This document shows, piece after piece, positions 8,575 through 34,201 of a DNA stretch of 64,000 nucleotides. This DNA is from a virus. The stretch covers positions 123,260 to 187,259 of IMG/VR virus record IMGVR_UViG_3300045125_000158; one strand, 5' to 3'. The notes under the pieces are model-generated. The model was not told where the DNA came from. It did no database searches and saw only the letters and a program-made list of their open reading frames with translations. The first letter of the stretch is position 1; each line of letters begins with the position of its first letter. Made by a program: the position numbers and the translations under genes.

Positions 8575-8970
8575 TTATATTGAGGTTGATTTTCTCGGAA
8601 TGGGTGTACCCCATCTTTTATTTGCGTATACAAGAGCTGCCTTAATATTGTGAAAATACTCACCATATGGACTATAAGTTTTAGTGTCTGGATCTTTCGT
8701 AAACTCTTCAATAGGTATTTTCTTAACACCTGCAAAATAAACCTTACCTAAATTTTTATGAACCGATGGACCTATAACAACATAGTAGATTGAATTTGTT
8801 GTATAATCATGACCTTCCCAACGATAATACGATCCAGCTCCTATTTGCTTTTCGAATCGTTTCTTCAATGGTTTTGATCTGGTACGATATGTTTCTTTCC
8901 ATATAATACCACGATCACGTATTCTTTTGCGACCCGCTTCTTTGTATAAATTGTATGGCTCCGTACTCAT
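8575..8970 (-). CDS. Hypothetical basic protein, 131 residues
   Basis: Intact frame starting MSTEPYNLYKEAGRKRIRDR, with an AAGGAAGG ribosome site just upstream. It is rich in Lys, Arg, Tyr and Gly (KKRFEKQIGAGSYYRWEGHD) and looks like a compact beta-rich domain. Its start overlaps the stop of a small upstream gene, so the two are probably co-translated. Confidence 0.7.
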   Translation of the reverse strand: MSTEPYNLYKEAGRKRIRDRGIIWKETYRTRSKPLKKRFEKQIGAGSYYRWEGHDYTTNSIYYVVIGPSVHKNLGKVYFAGVKKIPIEEFTKDPDTKTYSPYGEYFHNIKAALVYANKRWGTPIPRKSTSI

Positions 8971-22669: not shown

Positions 22670-25600
22670 TTTAAACTCCTCTACGGGGATAAGATGCCGT
22701 TTTTCTAAATCGTGAGCAACTTTTCCACCAGACCCAATTCCATAAGGCACGCCCTGCATAGATCTCCACACAATATCGTTATTACCATTTACTGGTAAAT
22801 TAATCAATTTTCCTTGCGGCAATCTGTCAACTTCTTTTTTCAATACAATTATAACAAGCACCTGCTAAAGCGTCTACGATATCATCAGTTGTAACGTCTC
22901 CATCTCTTTTGGGGTATACTTTATATCCACTATTCAACCACTTTCGTTGTAAATTTTTCATTTCATTCTTTAGCAATAGATGATTAGGAATAAACAACTT
23001 CCTCTGAACAACTAATTGATATAAATTGTCATAAATAATGTTCTTATATCTTTTAGTAAACGGCGTCATCTTGGTAGGAACGCCTTTTTTACGTAATTTT
23101 TCAATGCTATAATGGCTATTAAAATGGTCATATGTCACAACTCCAAGACAAAAATCGAACGTTTAAACTTGCAACATATTCATCCACCTCGTCTATAAGT
23201 ATTGGCCTATTAGGAGCAGGACTCCAGTATTTAATATGATCTACTATTATTCGCCAATCCTTTTTCATGTTCTCTTTATCAAAATATACCTCTTTGTGGG
23301 CCATTACAAGAGCGTAATTGTGACTAGATGTCGCAGGATCTAAATGTGCAAAATAATAAACACCAGCTTTTCCATGATCAATTAATTTAAGCAACTTGTC
23401 GTTGAAACAGTCCTCAACTGCTTCTTCTGGAAAAAGTTTTCACCAGAAGTACCTGAGGAATTCTGCACCAAATTCCATTCTGAATTTTTCTTCAGGCATA
23501 CTTGGAAATGCAGCCATAAGGCCTTCTTTGCTCTGCATAGGGTTTACCTGCCATGTTGCAGCCTGACAAACTAATCTATGATCAACCTCTGCATGATTGA
23601 CATACAAATCGTAAAAAATACCTTCTTTGCCTCTTGGCGTACTCAAACATATGATTTTACCATCATATATCTTATCTACAATCTGTTTATTATCCTTATC
23701 AAGTACTGGTTCGCCTTTATCATCAACTTTAGGCACTTCACGTACATATGTTTTTACTGCAGGGGCAAGAGAGTTAAATATCGCATCACCAGAAGATGCA
23801 CCAGCCGTGTTTTTATAAAGTCCAATTTCGTCAAGCAACAAAACATAACATGATATACCTACTAGCGTGTCTGAGTTACTGTGACCGCTTTTGACAACTA
23901 TACTCCCAAGATTTGGCGCGAAAACCTTTTGATACGAGTTCTTCGTTTCTCTTTCTATCTTCTGGTGTTAAGAAATGTATACCATCCGAAGTTACACCCT
24001 CAGGCAATATTTTATCTCTAAAATATTCGCTTTGTAAAACTTTATCTTTGATTTCGCGAAGAGAATTTTTGCTTGCAGAAGAATTTGCAATTGTTAAAAT
24101 TGTGAATGGTGTAGCTGAACCCAAATTATAAATTTTATACGGATCTCCGCCAGGCAATTCTAACAACCTCATCGCTTCATACAACGCAATAATTGAACAC
24201 AAAAATCTTTGCCTGAATTTTTTACGATGGAATCCCTGACAAACAAAATTTTGCAAATGCTCTTGATCACTAACTTGTAAGTCAAATACTCTTTTTCATC
24301 AATTGATAGATTTTATTTTAGAAAATGAAACTTTCGCATGTCTCTTTGACACTTTGCATTTTTTATAAGATTGTCTATTAGATTATTTATATTACTGTTT
24401 CTTCCTATAAATCTAATTTCATCAAGAAAAGTTTTTATATGTCGATATTTTTTAAACTCTAGACAATATGATAAACAATCATAATTGTAAAGTTTTCCTT
24501 CTGTCTTTATTTTAGTTTTTTGCTTTCTTGTTCTAATCGTTGCTATTATTCCGAATTTTTGCAACAGTGCTTGCACGGCCTGCACTTGCGATTTATTTAT
24601 CGATGCAAAACCCACAGTCATATTTGCTTGGTTATTTTTTCTAAAATGATAAACCCATCCGTCACAGCTAAACAGGGATTTCAGATAAGCGGCCACAACA
24701 TTCTTGGGGCAATTAAATAATGCACTTGGCACGCACTTGTTGTGACTCGTTTTACCCATAAGATCGTGCTTTATTAGAAGTTTTACAAGATCGTTTTTAT
24801 CTCTTGTTGATATGTTTCTCTGCTTTTTTCTCATCAAAATAATTTAGAGTAACAAATTTTTTGGATCGTATTTTATAAGCATATTTTTTACTGTCAGCCT
24901 TAGTCCATGTATCCTTGATTAATTCGAGATTATCACTCAGATTATTCAAATGCTTTTACAAAATCTGCACGTATATCTTCGTTTTTTGCAGTAAAAAAAA
25001 CTGCTGCTTGAGAACAACAGCCATCACCTGTTATATATCCTAATATAGCAGCTTCATCCTCACTAATTGCATTTGAATTGCCAAAAAATGGAATTGATTC
25101 GGTTATTGCTATTCTATCACCAGTATTTAAATCTTTACACTCGATCCATCCCCTGTCAGTAAGCATCGGATGATTGTCTGTAACTTCTATTTCATGCCCT
25201 GTAGAAGATGTAATCTTGTAAACACTTCTTCGACCCTGCGGTATGACGCCGCAATTGTCCATCACAACCATTTTGTTTTGCGATTCATCGTATGTCCAAG
25301 AAGATACTATTTTCTGTTCTTCCCACGCCTGTTTAGAAGTAAATTTCTCACCTGTTCTAGCATCAATCAAAACGCCATCTTCAGAAATACAATTGTGGCA
25401 TATAAAACCATTTGCCACAAAATTTTGCAAGCTTTCATGTTCACTAACTTGAAGATCAAAAGTTCTTTTTGTACCTATTTTTTTGATTATTTTTACTGTC
25501 GCAAAAATTGGAGCTATCTAAATCATGCTCACCCTTAACATTCTGTTGAACAAGTTCGCTCTCATATGAATAATTAAGCAAACCAATTTCTTGTATAAAT

Positions 25601-26839
25601 GTTTTAACATGCACATTTTTATCAATTGTAATAATAAAACTAGAACGATATTTATCGAGCTTATTTTTAATCGTAGCAAATATGCCAAACCTTGACAGCA
25701 GATGCTGAATATGCTTAGCTAACAAAGAACTGTAAACTTTTAGTTCTAGCTTTGCTGTAAACTTTTTCCTTGCTTACAAATAAACACTGCATCACTACTA
25801 TATATTGCTCTCAAATATGTACTAATAATATTCTTAGATGAATTGAAAATACGCACAGGAACAAACTTTTTGACTTGGACTTTTGTTTTTTAATCCATTT
25901 TGAGCCAGTAAGTTTATAATATTTGTATCGTTGTCTAAATAATTTTTCATCGTATATAAATACGAGTACTTTCTTTCATCAAAAGATCGTATATTATGTT
26001 TATCTGCAAAATCTACAAGCATTTCTGTTTTTAGCGATTTCAAATTTGCTTTGAAATCATCATAAACAGCACCATCATACAGCGTTGTAGCTATATGTAT
26101 ACCCGTTGAATCAAAACTGTTACTGCATATATATCCTAATATAGCGGCTTGTGATTCTTGCAAATCAAAATTGTTACCAAAGAAAGGCTGTGATGCTGCA
26201 ATAGCAATCTTATCTTTTATTTTTAAGTCTTTTGAGTTTCTTCCATCCCTTATTTGTAAGCATTGGATGGTTTTCAGTTGCTTCTATCTCGTGACCAGAG
26301 TCAGTTTGTATCTTATAAACTTCACGCATACCTTGATATATCAAGTTTGAATTTGGCATGAGAGTCATGACTTTGTTTTTTCATCAAATGTCCACGCATC
26401 TAATGTTGTTTTCCAAAATTCCATAAATCGCCCAATCTCCAGATTCTGCCTGTTTTGGGTTCAACAATTTCACAATCTTCACTAAGGCATCTACGACCCC
26501 ATACTAAAACTAACTCTCTAAAATCATGCTTTGAATTCCATTTATCAATCAAGTTGCCTTTTTCAATAGAATTTAGAGAGTTTTTATTGATGAGATCAAT
26601 ATCTTCCTTACTAAGCGCAAGGTCTTCGTTACCTTGACTGCCTCTGTAGAAGCATTTTAAGAACTAATTTTTGTAGATCAAATAGCTTATATGGAAGTCC
26701 CAAATACTTTTTGTTATCCACAAACTCTAGGATACTAGGTATTTTTGTCAAAGACTTGCGAATCGTGCTGTATCTTTTCGCGAAGACCTTTGAACAATAG
26801 ATTATCATTAGTTTTTTTATTTTGTTTATCCTTAGCCAT
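22637..26839 (-). CDS. terL: Terminase large subunit with two tandem inteins
   Basis: The packaging ATPase-nuclease. Start MAKDKQNKKTNDNLLFKGLR at 26839. The N-extein runs through EFVDNKKYLGLPYKLFDLQK and RELVLVWGRR. After both inteins it resumes as SGKDF, rebuilding a Walker A GRRSGKD, then IALYEAMRLLELPGGDPYKI. The ATPase continues with LLLDEIGLYKNTAGASSGDA (Walker B DE) and LSTPRGKEGIFYDLY. The nuclease domain has FAHLDPATSSHNYALVMAHK, TYDHFNSHYSIEKLRKKG and DVTTDDIVDALAGAC, supplying Asp residues for two-metal catalysis. Length without inteins is about 640 residues, normal for TerL. Indels occur near 26730, 26650, 23870, 23440, 23135 and 22850. The end is 22637 or, if an A-run indel is corrected, about 22666 (EEFK stop overlapping the next ATG). 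Confidence 0.93.
24217..25391 (-). other. Intein 2 in terL (downstream of a tandem pair), endonuclease intact
   Basis: It starts at the Cys immediately after the terminal Asn of intein 1 (CISEDGVLIDARTGEKFTSK). The B-block is GHEIEVTDNHPMLTDRGW. LAGLIDADG motifs are present as ILGYITGDGCC and LKSLFSCDGWVY. After one indel it ends DSIVKN before Ser of the extein SGKDF. About 391 residues. It is clearly paralogous to intein 1 (shared SEDxxI start, PFFGN before motif one, DLQVS near the end). Confidence 0.88.
25392..26489 (-). other. Intein 1 in terL (upstream of a tandem pair), endonuclease motifs degenerate
   Basis: It starts at Cys in GRR|CLSEDCEIVEPKTGRIW. The B-block is HEIEATENHPMLTNKGW. 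It ends TFDLQVSEHESLQNFVANGF, then ICHN, directly followed by Cys. About 366 residues. The two LAGLIDADG-type positions read LGYICSNSF and LRAIYSSDAVF, lacking the usual Gly-Asp-Gly core, so the homing endonuclease is probably inactive. Splicing blocks look intact. Confidence 0.88.
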
Positions 26840-30228: not shown

Positions 30229-33200
30229 TTAACCACACTTTGATCCGCCGCAATCCTTGCAAGTCAAACATCCTTCCATTCTTACGACATTCGCTCCGCC
30301 GCATGAAGAGCATTGAGAACCGGTAACCTTAGTTCCATCAGCTATATACTTTTTCAAAACTCTAGCCATAGCTTTACCAAAATTAGTCATGTCTCCCGGC
30401 GACTTCTCTAGCTGATCAACGATAAATGATATGTCGGAACCATGCCTCAAAGCCAAACTAATCATGCGTGTGATAACTGCCTGTTCGTCAGTAAGTAAAT
30501 CGCAAACATTTTCAACCTTTGACCCGTCCTCTGCATGCAACTCGTAATGTCCTCGTTTATTTTTGGTAAGAGTTCCTTTCTTTAGTGTTGTGATGCATCC
30601 GTTCTTACCCGCAAATACTTCGTACGGATGACCCTCAAGCATGCTAACAAGAACAAAGAAATCTTCACCACGAGATTTGATATGATGTATATCACAATCA
30701 AGAGTCTTGGGTCGCTTTGGAGCATTCGTCTTAGTAAGCGATTCCTTCTTCTTTTCAGTGTTTGATACAAGAACGCCAGTGCGACATCCGTCACGATATA
30801 CAGTAAATCCTTTGCAGCCAGCCTGCCATGCTTTCATGTAAACTTCTGCAACAACTTCTTGCGTTGCTTCGTTAGGCAAGTTACATGTTTTGCTAATAGC
30901 GTGATCAACCCATTTTTGAGCAACGCCCTGCAAATCTACGCTAGCAGCCCAATCTACGTCGTTGCTTGTTGCCTTGTAATAAGGTGACTCCTTGTAAAAT
31001 TCAAGATCTTCGGCAGTTGCTATGTTCTTAATTTGATTCGTCTGGAATTTCATATCCATTAGCGTCCATCCACGCCTTGAATTGATGATGGAATACTGGG
31101 AATTCTTGCCACTTATCTCCGTTCTGATCAACAAAATCAACTCGCACATTCTGGCCATCACCGGGATTTATTTTCTTACGACGCTTGTAGAAGACTAAAT
31201 ATGCTGGCTCGATACCAGAGGTGGTTTGGCGTAACTGTTGATACAGAACCCGTAAGGCGCAGTTGTTAGGTTAGCGATATTTCTGCGACCGTACTTGCTA
31301 TACAATTCATATACATCTGGTGCGGCATCCCAAATTCTTTGCAAATAAGGATGATTCTTTTCAAGCTTGTGATCAAAAATAGGGAATGCACCACGATCTT
31401 TGCCATCTTGCAACTAGAGCGATAAGAACCAACAGCAAGACTCTTATAAATCATTTCTGTAATCTCAATGCTCTCTTTGCTACCATATCGGACATTCAAA
31501 GCAGCAATAGCGTCACCTAGAGCAGTAATTCCAAGTCCCGTTCTACGCCCCTCAATACATGCCTTGCGTATGTTAAGCCACAACTCTTTTTCAACCAGTT
31601 TTACTTCATCAGATTCTGGATCGCTCTCTATTTTAGCTAATATTTTAGCAATCTGCTCTAATTCAAGGTCGATCATGTCGTCCATGAGTCTCTGTGCAAT
31701 TTCCGCCATTTGCTCAAGTTTTTTGATAATTAAACTTGGCATTTTTGTAAATTTATCTGTCTACAAAACTCAACAAATTAACGCACATAAGCCGGCACGA
31801 ATCTCTAGGACTTAAGATGATTTCGCCACAATTTTTGCTGCAAATCATATGCCATTCTTTTGCCATCTTTTTCATTTGACCAACCACCCATGTAGTAGTT
31901 ATTAAATTCATCAACTGTACCATTATAGACAATATCTTTGCCTAGGTATTCAACAGATTGGACACGATGATTGTGCTGCAAAGCTGCTGCTTTGAGTTCG
32001 GAAAAACTATAAAATCCGTTTTTAGTTCGCAATCTAAAAGATATCTTTTGAGTTCTACACTCGTTTTCCCACTCCTTAAGCAAAGGCTCTCGACACAAAG
32101 CCTGCTTGAGTTTTGTATAGATATCTAACTTGTCTTTTTTGTTTTTGTTAGCGTAATTATGATACGTTGCATTTATTGATTCTTTTCTGCGAATATTTAC
32201 ATTAGTAGTATTGTTAAGATAAATATTGCTGCAGCTCAGGCTACATACAGATTGCTCTCTATTGTAGTAATTTACAGCGTATGAATTTTTGCAGCATTTA
32301 CAATTCTTGATTACATAAACTTCAGATCCTTCGATGTAAGCTTCATAACCTTGCTCGATAGCCTTTCGATGAGTTTTAACTAAACGCGGATCAATATCGA
32401 TATCAGCAAAATTGAGAGCAAGAGCACATTCCTTTGCTAAATCCAAAATATTACCCAATTCAGAAGATCGATATGCGGTAAATGTTTGTGGCAAGTTGTT
32501 TTTCTTTGCGTACTCAATCCACTCAAGATGTGAAAATCTTGCTCCAACTTGCTTAGTAAGAATCATTGCGTGTTCTCTAATTTCATCATTGGTATAATTT
32601 TTGCGTTTCCATTTTTATCATTACTACAAGCCTCAGACATTACTTGTGAGTAAGCGGCAAATCTTTCTTTATCAGATTTGATCTTGTAGATGGGGGTTCG
32701 CTAATCCACGAATCATGTTGCCGTGATACTGTGCATGAGCATCCTTGTGCATGCTTTCTAAATTGCTCGGGTTATTATTCTTAGGATTATGATCCTTATG
32801 ATGCACATGATGATGCTTAGCTACTGGCCCATAATGATGTTCGAACACGTAACGATGCTCTGACTTTTTAAAATTAGAATTACTATTAGCGAGTATATAA
32901 TATAAAAGCTTATTGTTTGTAGACTTTTGGGTTGAGAATGCATCTACTATTGTTGACTCAGAATTTTCTTGCAATGTGCAAGCTGTCGCCATGTTTCAAA
33001 TTTTTTACTTCGACGAAATCACCAGTATTCAATAGCACTTTATGGTTGCCAGTAGTTTTAAATTCCGAACCATCATCCAAAACAACTTTATAAACATCCT
33101 CACTATGTCCAGTTATTCTTGGGTTACGCATTGTCCTTACAGCAATCCTGCCTTGATGATCGCAACAATAAACAGGCACATCTAAGCCTTCTTCCGCAAG

Positions 33201-34201
33201 CTTTTGTATTTCAACGAAACCACGTCCATCAGCGACAGCAATCTTGGTGTCACCCGTTACACAAGGATTAGTTGCTGTCGATGCGAAACCAAAATCCTTA
33301 TAAATATCAGATGGGGTATACTTCTGAGCGGTATCCCAAAATAAGCAGATCCTGGCTCGGCTGATTCCCAAGCAGCATGTATAATTTCTTTCCACAACTC
33401 TACTGCATCAACTTCTTGCCGCACTTTTGGATTGCTGGAATTTACTGGCCAACGTAATTCAACTTTGCTCTTATTCTTGACTGCATTCATAAATTCATCA
33501 GACAAGCGTATAGATATATTTGCTCCAGTGACTTTAGTTTTATCTTTCTTAATATTGATGAATGTGCGTATCTCAGGATGATGGCAAGATATTGTTAGCA
33601 TCAATGCCCCACGACGACCATTTTGCGCAACCTCACGGCAAGTATTACTAAATCGCTCCATAAATACGCCAATACCATCAGTAGTACGAGCTGCGTTCTT
33701 AGTAATGATTCCTTTCGGTCGAATGTGGCTGATATCAAATCCAACACCACCACGACGCTTCATAATTTGAGCTTGCTCTTGGTCTGTTTTTAATATTCCA
33801 CCATATGAGTCTTCAGGCGATGGTATCACGAAACAATTCGAACAGCTCTGTATTTGATAATCATTTCCAATAGCGCTCATAGGTGAGCCTTGAGGAATTA
33901 TCCACTGGAAATCCTTGAAATAGTTGCATATTTCTTCTTCACTCAATGCATTGCTATAATTCTTTTCTATTCTCGCAAATTCTTTTGCTAATCTTCTGTG
34001 CATTTCGTTTGGCGTTGGTTCTAAAATATTACCATTTTGGTCTCGCATAGCATACTTGCTTACGAAGACACTGGCTGCTAAATTGTCTCCGTCAAAATAT
34101 TCTAAACTCATTTTCATGGCCTCTTCATGAGTGTAGACGCTTTGACCTTTAGCTATATCTTGATTAGCATTTGCGAACGTTGTCATATTCAATTTCTCCA
34201 T
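30229..34201 (-). CDS. nrdJ: Class II (adenosylcobalamin-dependent) ribonucleotide reductase, intein-interrupted
   Basis: It reduces ribonucleotides to deoxyribonucleotides. N-extein: PSPEDSYGGILKTDQEQAQI, MKRRGGVGFDISHIRPKG, NGRRGALMLTISCHHPEIR. It reads into the intein at ATNP|C. After the intein: CGEIILSPRDSCRLMCVNL, the radical-site region, then EGRRTGLGITALGDAIAALN and YMKAWQAGCKGFTVYRDG. The C-terminus carries CSSCGG...CLTCKDCGGSKCG, a Cys-rich tail typical of NrdJ. About 845 residues without the intein. No small subunit gene is adjacent, in line with class II. Indels lie near 33350, 31760, 31430, 31215 and 31100. Confidence 0.92.
31831..33263 (-). other. Intein in nrdJ with an HNH-type endonuclease
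   Basis: It begins at Cys in TNP|CVTGDTKIAVADGRGFVE and has B-block FKTTGNHKVLLNTGDF. It ends HRVQSVEYLGKDIVYNGTVD, EFNNYYMGG and, after an indel, SKN before CGEI. It inserts before the conserved CGE of the reductase, a known intein site in this family. The inserted domain has RYVFEHHYGPVAKHHHVHHK and DHNPKNNNPSNLESMHKDAH, an HNH pattern, unlike the LAGLIDADG enzymes of the other inteins. About 475 residues. Confidence 0.88.

Follow-up and report, generated by a model that had tools for sequence, protein, structure and literature searches.

Two inteins with no extein residue between them at the Walker A site of a phage terminase gene

The window (the whole stretch of DNA analysed here, 64,000 nucleotides) is the final 64 kb of a 187,259-base viral contig. 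It carries a terminase (TerL) gene interrupted by two inteins at a Walker-A-like motif (Table 1). The last Asn codon of intein 1 is followed directly by the Cys codon that opens intein 2, and the number of extein residues between ..FICHN and CISED is zero, both in the window and in a second contig, L008. Removal of both inteins yields GRRSGKDF, the same sequence as that found in intein-free relatives. An earlier note on this DNA had described two paralogous inteins at this site with nothing between them and a rebuilt GRRSGKD; the window and the L008 reading frame bear out this arrangement, and the boundaries that the note gave for both inteins and for the return of the terminase at SGKDF are exact. 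The host C-extein is related to annotated terminases of Streptomyces, Rhodococcus and other phages (22-25% identity over 89-100%, E down to 2e-23), and the GRRSGKD at the intein site is Walker-A-like, so that the protein is identified as a terminase by homology; no Pfam or PHROG family scored above its cut-off.

Table 1. Features of the interrupted TerL gene, in window coordinates
Feature	Position	Strand	Basis and remarks
TerL N-extein to intein site (..ELVLVWGRR)	26490..26660	-	tblastn with L008 N-extein, 70% identity over 26660-26490, E 2e-27; motif also in related TerL contigs
Intein 1 (CLSED...GFICHN)	25392..26489	-	class-1 splicing motifs kept; LAGLIDADG degenerate (SNS for GDG); orthologue of the L005/L006 single inteins and of L008 intein 1
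Zero-extein junction ..TGCCACAAT/TGTATTTCT..	25391..25392	-	last Asn codon of intein 1, then Cys1 codon of intein 2; L008 junction at 8782/8783, in one open frame
Intein 2 (CISEDG...FIVKN)	24217..25391	-	60% identity with intein 2 of L008; GDG and CDG retain the two LAGLIDADG catalytic Asp residues; Lys in place of the penultimate His
TerL C-extein (SGKDF.., from 24216)	22697..24216	-	three frame changes in window; tblastn with L008 C-extein, 63-81% identity, four segments

Frameshifts occur throughout the window (1-64000), intact open reading frames (ORFs) are few, and the gene calls for this record are consequently unreliable. The reading frame shifts several times within each of the two inteins and within the TerL extein; neither intein is a single open frame, and the earlier reading, which makes no mention of the frameshifts, had been pieced together across frames. 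Reassignment of stop codons was rejected as an explanation of the broken frames, since the pieces stayed unjoined when TAG or TGA was read as sense. A search of IMG/VR with the TerL C-extein returned four contigs (L005, L006, L007 and L008). L008 (IMG/VR 3300033067_002502) belongs to a different phage, with a TerL C-extein about 74% identical to that of the window, and its N-extein, intein 1, intein 2 and C-extein form one unbroken ORF of 1425 codons. The order is GRR, intein 1 (368 aa, ending ..GFICHN), intein 2 (396 aa, CISEDG..NYIVSN) and SGKDF. This unbroken ORF removes the doubt raised by the frameshifts of the window. The window assembly is rich in errors, and two alleles from a mixed population might have been joined in one contig; however, such a join should leave a repeated extein or a lost codon at the joint, neither of which is present, and the exact junction recurs in the unbroken ORF of a phage whose intein 2 is only 60% identical. 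The same junction in two separate assemblies of diverged phages argues strongly against an artefact, and we regard one as extremely improbable. L008 shows neither extein residues between the inteins nor a single intein only. We conclude that the zero-extein tandem inteins in TerL are real.

The GRR/S site was surveyed in 83 TerL contigs (68 IMG/VR contigs from a wider scan and 15 from a further scan). Of these, 68 have no insertion there and 15 do; in L090 and L190 the occupied site runs off the contig end, so that each counts as at least one intein. All 15 occupied sites have Ser at +1, and the site is empty in all seven relatives with Ala at this position (L107, L113, L123, L135, L136, L138 and L148), as the chemistry of splicing demands. 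GRRSGKDF is present without insertion in L055 and L056. Intein 1 alone is found at exactly GRR/SGKDF in two close relatives, represented by three contigs (L005, L006 and L007, the last identical to L006 over this stretch); several contigs have only an intein-2-like allele, and both inteins are found in L008 among the 83. Occupants resembling intein 1, with a decayed endonuclease, are those of L083/L008, L084/L005, L085/L006, L086 and the window, while those of a second lineage (lineage 2) retain intact LAGLIDADG residues (L102, L105, L106, L121, L134, L241 and, in part, L090). Two mini-inteins at GRR/S, of 188 aa (L150) and 154 aa (L146), are stages of endonuclease loss. The near-identical TerL genes of L241, with a lineage-2 intein, and L189, with an empty site, have flanking DNA identities of 92.5% and 97.1%, indicating that lineage 2 has moved recently at GRR/S. 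L086 has a lineage-1 intein and L090 a lineage-2 intein at this site, and their C-exteins are 76% identical in DNA; the two lineages are alternative occupants of GRR/S in near kin. The site, in the Walker A motif of this large-phage TerL family, is probably a hot spot for one class-1 intein family.

Intein 1 keeps C1, the block B TxxH motif (TDNH/TENH in the two inteins), the block F Asp and the terminal His-Asn (CHN), and its +1 residue in the tandem is Cys. The L008 copy scores 58.1 bits against PF14890 (Intein_splicing; cut-off, 35.8), whereas the intein fragments of the window score 22.8-26.9 bits because their frames are broken. The first endonuclease Asp is replaced (SNS, SGS) in 4 of 4 intein 1 copies and the second is kept in some. 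In the window, GYICSNS stands for GYITGDG, and the second Asp is present without its Gly (SSDA for SCDG). The earlier note had intein 1 losing both Gly-Asp-Gly cores; both contexts are indeed gone, but one catalytic Asp is lost and not both. Intein 1 thus lacks the two catalytic Asp residues that mark a LAGLIDADG enzyme, and its endonuclease is, by these motifs, dead.

Intein 2 keeps C1, the block B TxxH and the terminal Asn, and has Ser at +1. The L008 copy scores 47.6 bits against PF14890, over the same cut-off, and 62.0 bits, in two stretches, against LAGLIDADG_3, a family matched by both inteins. GYITGDG and LFSCDG are present in both copies, in agreement with the earlier note, so that both catalytic Asp residues are in place and the endonuclease looks intact. 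An AlphaFold model of intein 2 (pLDDT 83) matches the TliVMA, PI-PfuI and PI-SceI inteins, with E values of 8e-16 to 1e-8 for TliVMA and PI-SceI, and its Hint part lies 1.3 A from the Ssp DnaB intein. The penultimate His is absent from both copies, being replaced by Lys in the window (KN) and by Ser in L008 (SN). This block G residue is common in class-1 inteins and not obligatory. As the single mini-intein L150 also ends in Ser-Asn, the missing His is not peculiar to the tandem, and Gln occupies the usual block-F His position in nearly all alleles. Intein 1 has dN/dS (NG86) values of about 0.10-0.19 and intein 2 a value of 0.14, all rough because dS is near saturation; they indicate, at this rough level, purifying selection on both inteins.

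The two inteins belong to one family, occupy the same site, are similar in length and have C-terminal blocks in common, as might be expected if intein 1 had been copied head to tail, with the downstream copy keeping its endonuclease while the upstream copy decayed. However, the identity of intein 2 is 30-38% to the copies of intein 1 and 40-50% to single lineage-2 alleles at the same site in other TerL clades. In a maximum-likelihood tree, the two copies of intein 2 pair with each other (100/100) and are placed with the lineage-2 singles (100/99), while the intein 1 copies are placed with L086 (100/99). Approximately unbiased (AU) tests reject a grouping of intein 1 and intein 2 without the L086 allele (p_AU 0.0009), and reject outright a clade made up solely of both inteins from the double phages; a duplication that predates the branching of L086 is compatible with the data (p_AU 0.46). 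Neither the identity matrix nor the trees nor the AU tests place intein 2 nearest to intein 1, and we consider a tandem duplication unlikely. Of the two origins suggested in the earlier note, these data agree with a second invasion next to an intein already in place and not with a recent duplication of intein 1. In the TerL tree the window, L008, L005 and L006 form one clade (100/100), all with intein 1; hence, the simplest reading has intein 1 as the resident and intein 2 as the later arrival. Placing the two double phages, the window and L008, as sisters costs 4.4 log units (p_AU 0.11). As they are not clearly sisters, one gain of intein 2 followed by loss in L005/L006 and two separate gains are both possible.

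The absence of an extein has consequences for splicing. In the class-1 reaction, Cys1 attacks the carbonyl at -1, the N-extein is transferred to the +1 residue, and the final Asn undergoes cyclisation (PMC10663303). The inner Asn-Cys bond is a scissile bond twice over, C-terminal for intein 1 and N-terminal for intein 2, and it is the target of both the Asn cyclisation of the former and the N-S shift of the latter. Since this bond can serve one reaction at a time, splicing of the two inteins must be sequential, and the ordered splicing proposed in the earlier note is supported by this chemistry. An AlphaFold model of the whole tandem (pLDDT 50) is too poor for judging the geometry of the joint. 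Both inteins are predicted to splice, and either order is chemically legal. If intein 1 spliced first, Cys1 of intein 2 would act as the +1 nucleophile and the product would be GRR/intein 2/SGKD, the native context of the lineage-2 singles, from which intein 2 would then be excised to rebuild GRRSGKD. We lean somewhat towards this order: no catalytic residue is missing from intein 1, which also gains a Cys at +1, whereas intein 2 is preceded by Asn at -1 and its penultimate His is absent. The reverse order would give the ancestral precursor GRR-intein 1-SGKD, from which intein 1 would leave with Ser at +1, and intein 1 stands in exactly this context (HN/SGKD) in L005 and L006. It would, however, require intein 2 to start with Asn rather than Arg at -1 and without its penultimate His, and in some inteins the N-S shift is impeded by an Asn at -1. 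It is therefore the less probable course, albeit one to be taken seriously.

A different outcome is that the N-terminal half of intein 1 pairs with the C-terminal half of intein 2 and the two leave as a single unit, the inner sites lying idle. The outer Cys1 of intein 1, the Asn of intein 2 and the Ser at +1 are chemically sufficient for this, and two folded Hint domains might crowd the inner junction. Idle sites, however, would not be expected to persist, and the inner His-Asn/Cys junction, the TxxH of intein 2 and the block F Asp of intein 1 are kept in both doubles, even though the two doubles share only about 49% identity in intein 1 and 60% in intein 2. Moreover, either half taken singly matches a complete intein, and intein 1 occurs without a partner in close relatives. 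We hold such a composite to be quite improbable, and sequential splicing of two separate inteins is the reading that we retain.

Taken together, the evidence is best explained by a resident intein 1, a later insertion of intein 2 at its border with the C-extein and sequential splicing of the two, a history that we consider likely. Intein 1 would be an old allele that filled the site in this phage clade and then lost its endonuclease; intein 2, from the same family and with an intact endonuclease, would have entered precisely where intein 1 meets the C-extein. Of the original homing site, the right half persists at that border, but the left half is not rebuilt there (1-5 of 12 bases match, with about 2.5 expected by chance); hence, ordinary recognition of an empty site fails to explain the entry of intein 2. 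Its endonuclease may tolerate a single half-site or may cut nearby; alternatively, an allele with intein 1 may have undergone rare recombination with one carrying intein 2. The TliVMA intein cuts a second site beside its homing site (PMC8966425). Once formed, the pair could be copied as one gene-conversion tract, and intein 1 now probably hitch-hikes, at the DNA level, on the endonuclease of intein 2. Hitch-hiking of dead endonucleases on active neighbours has been described for phage introns (PMC10643990). More tentatively, the pair may have become a twin intein, in which the scissile bond is shared, Cys1 of intein 2 is the sole +1 residue of intein 1, the order of splicing is obligatory, and the two home as a unit: intein 1, its own endonuclease dead, would be carried by the active enzyme of intein 2, which would now target the edge of a site already filled. 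Filled sites are usually regarded as protected against a further intein from the same site family, and the tandem represents a way round this protection. It also sets, in nature, two splicing reactions in competition for a single peptide bond; their order, the competition and off-pathway cleavage are measurable in a standard E. coli reporter with mutations of one residue at a time. As empty, intein-1-only, intein-2-like-only and double alleles all occur in related phages, the steps of invasion are directly comparable.

Other examples were sought by several routes. In IMG/VR, L008 was the only real tandem obtained with the FICHNCI junction. A scan with intein 2 alone likewise gave L008 only. 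A scan with a generic HN/C..GDT junction, a pattern that would miss the CISED type and so gives a limited negative, had 26 matches in GTDB genomes and 2 in IMG/VR, none of them a tandem. In the intein-like matches (L162, L177 and L178) the HN lies within the extein. A scan of GTDB genomes with the TerL alignment found none. A literature search for tandem, adjacent, contiguous or double inteins, its scope stopping short of most subscription papers and of InBase, yielded no zero-extein pair. The suggestion in the earlier note that no such pair has been described thus holds for this literature and for these restricted GTDB and IMG/VR scans. Within this scope the zero-extein pair is a new arrangement; genes with several inteins are themselves common.

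The closest parallels differ in the spacing of the inteins or in their number per gene. The mycobacteriophage inteins TerL1-a and TerL1-b are likewise of class-1 type and lie in the Walker A/P-loop of TerL; their insertion sites are one residue apart and splicing and endonuclease activity have been demonstrated for some TerL inteins, and the passages on these sites make no mention of both in one protein or of a zero-extein pair (PMC5050341). The tandem described here, in contrast, lies at GRR/SGKD in a distant TerL group, with both inteins in one gene and nothing between them. Haloferax MCM-a and MCM-d also place two inteins in a gene and raise the questions of interplay between two endonucleases and of dead elements hitch-hiking on active ones, but they occupy distinct sites with extein between (PMC10643990). 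Two inteins lie 85 residues apart in Thermococcus kodakarensis PolB and 48 residues apart in Pyrococcus abyssi CDC21 (as cited in PMC8966425), compared with none here. The TerL of Delta-group crAss-like phages also has two inteins, but as three fragments with extein between, of the Hint-Hop type and in a recoded genome (PMC7886860). TliVMA and PhoVMA (PMC8966425; PDB 7qsu and 7qst) share the Hint and LAGLIDADG fold and provide active and degenerate alleles at one P-loop site, but with one allele per gene and in another host protein.

Inteins were also seen elsewhere. The INPHARED TerL inteins found by similarity (BS162P1, KLEB27-3, cr56_1 and Perkons) lie at other sites. Two TerL genes that are empty at the GRR/S-or-A site have an intein near the C-terminus, in the regions L136:799-2142 (DDV/CVVPET..SHN/CDCLAGACY) and L149:6001-7356 (DDM/CVLPET..VHN/CDALAGACY), and the TerL frames of L244 and L250 are similarly long. 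Within the window itself, at ~31850-33230 on the minus strand, an intein interrupts a ribonucleotide reductase large-subunit gene (FASTATNP/CVTGDTKI..); it contains an HNH-like HHHVHHKDHNPKNN stretch, and frameshifts blur its C-terminal border.
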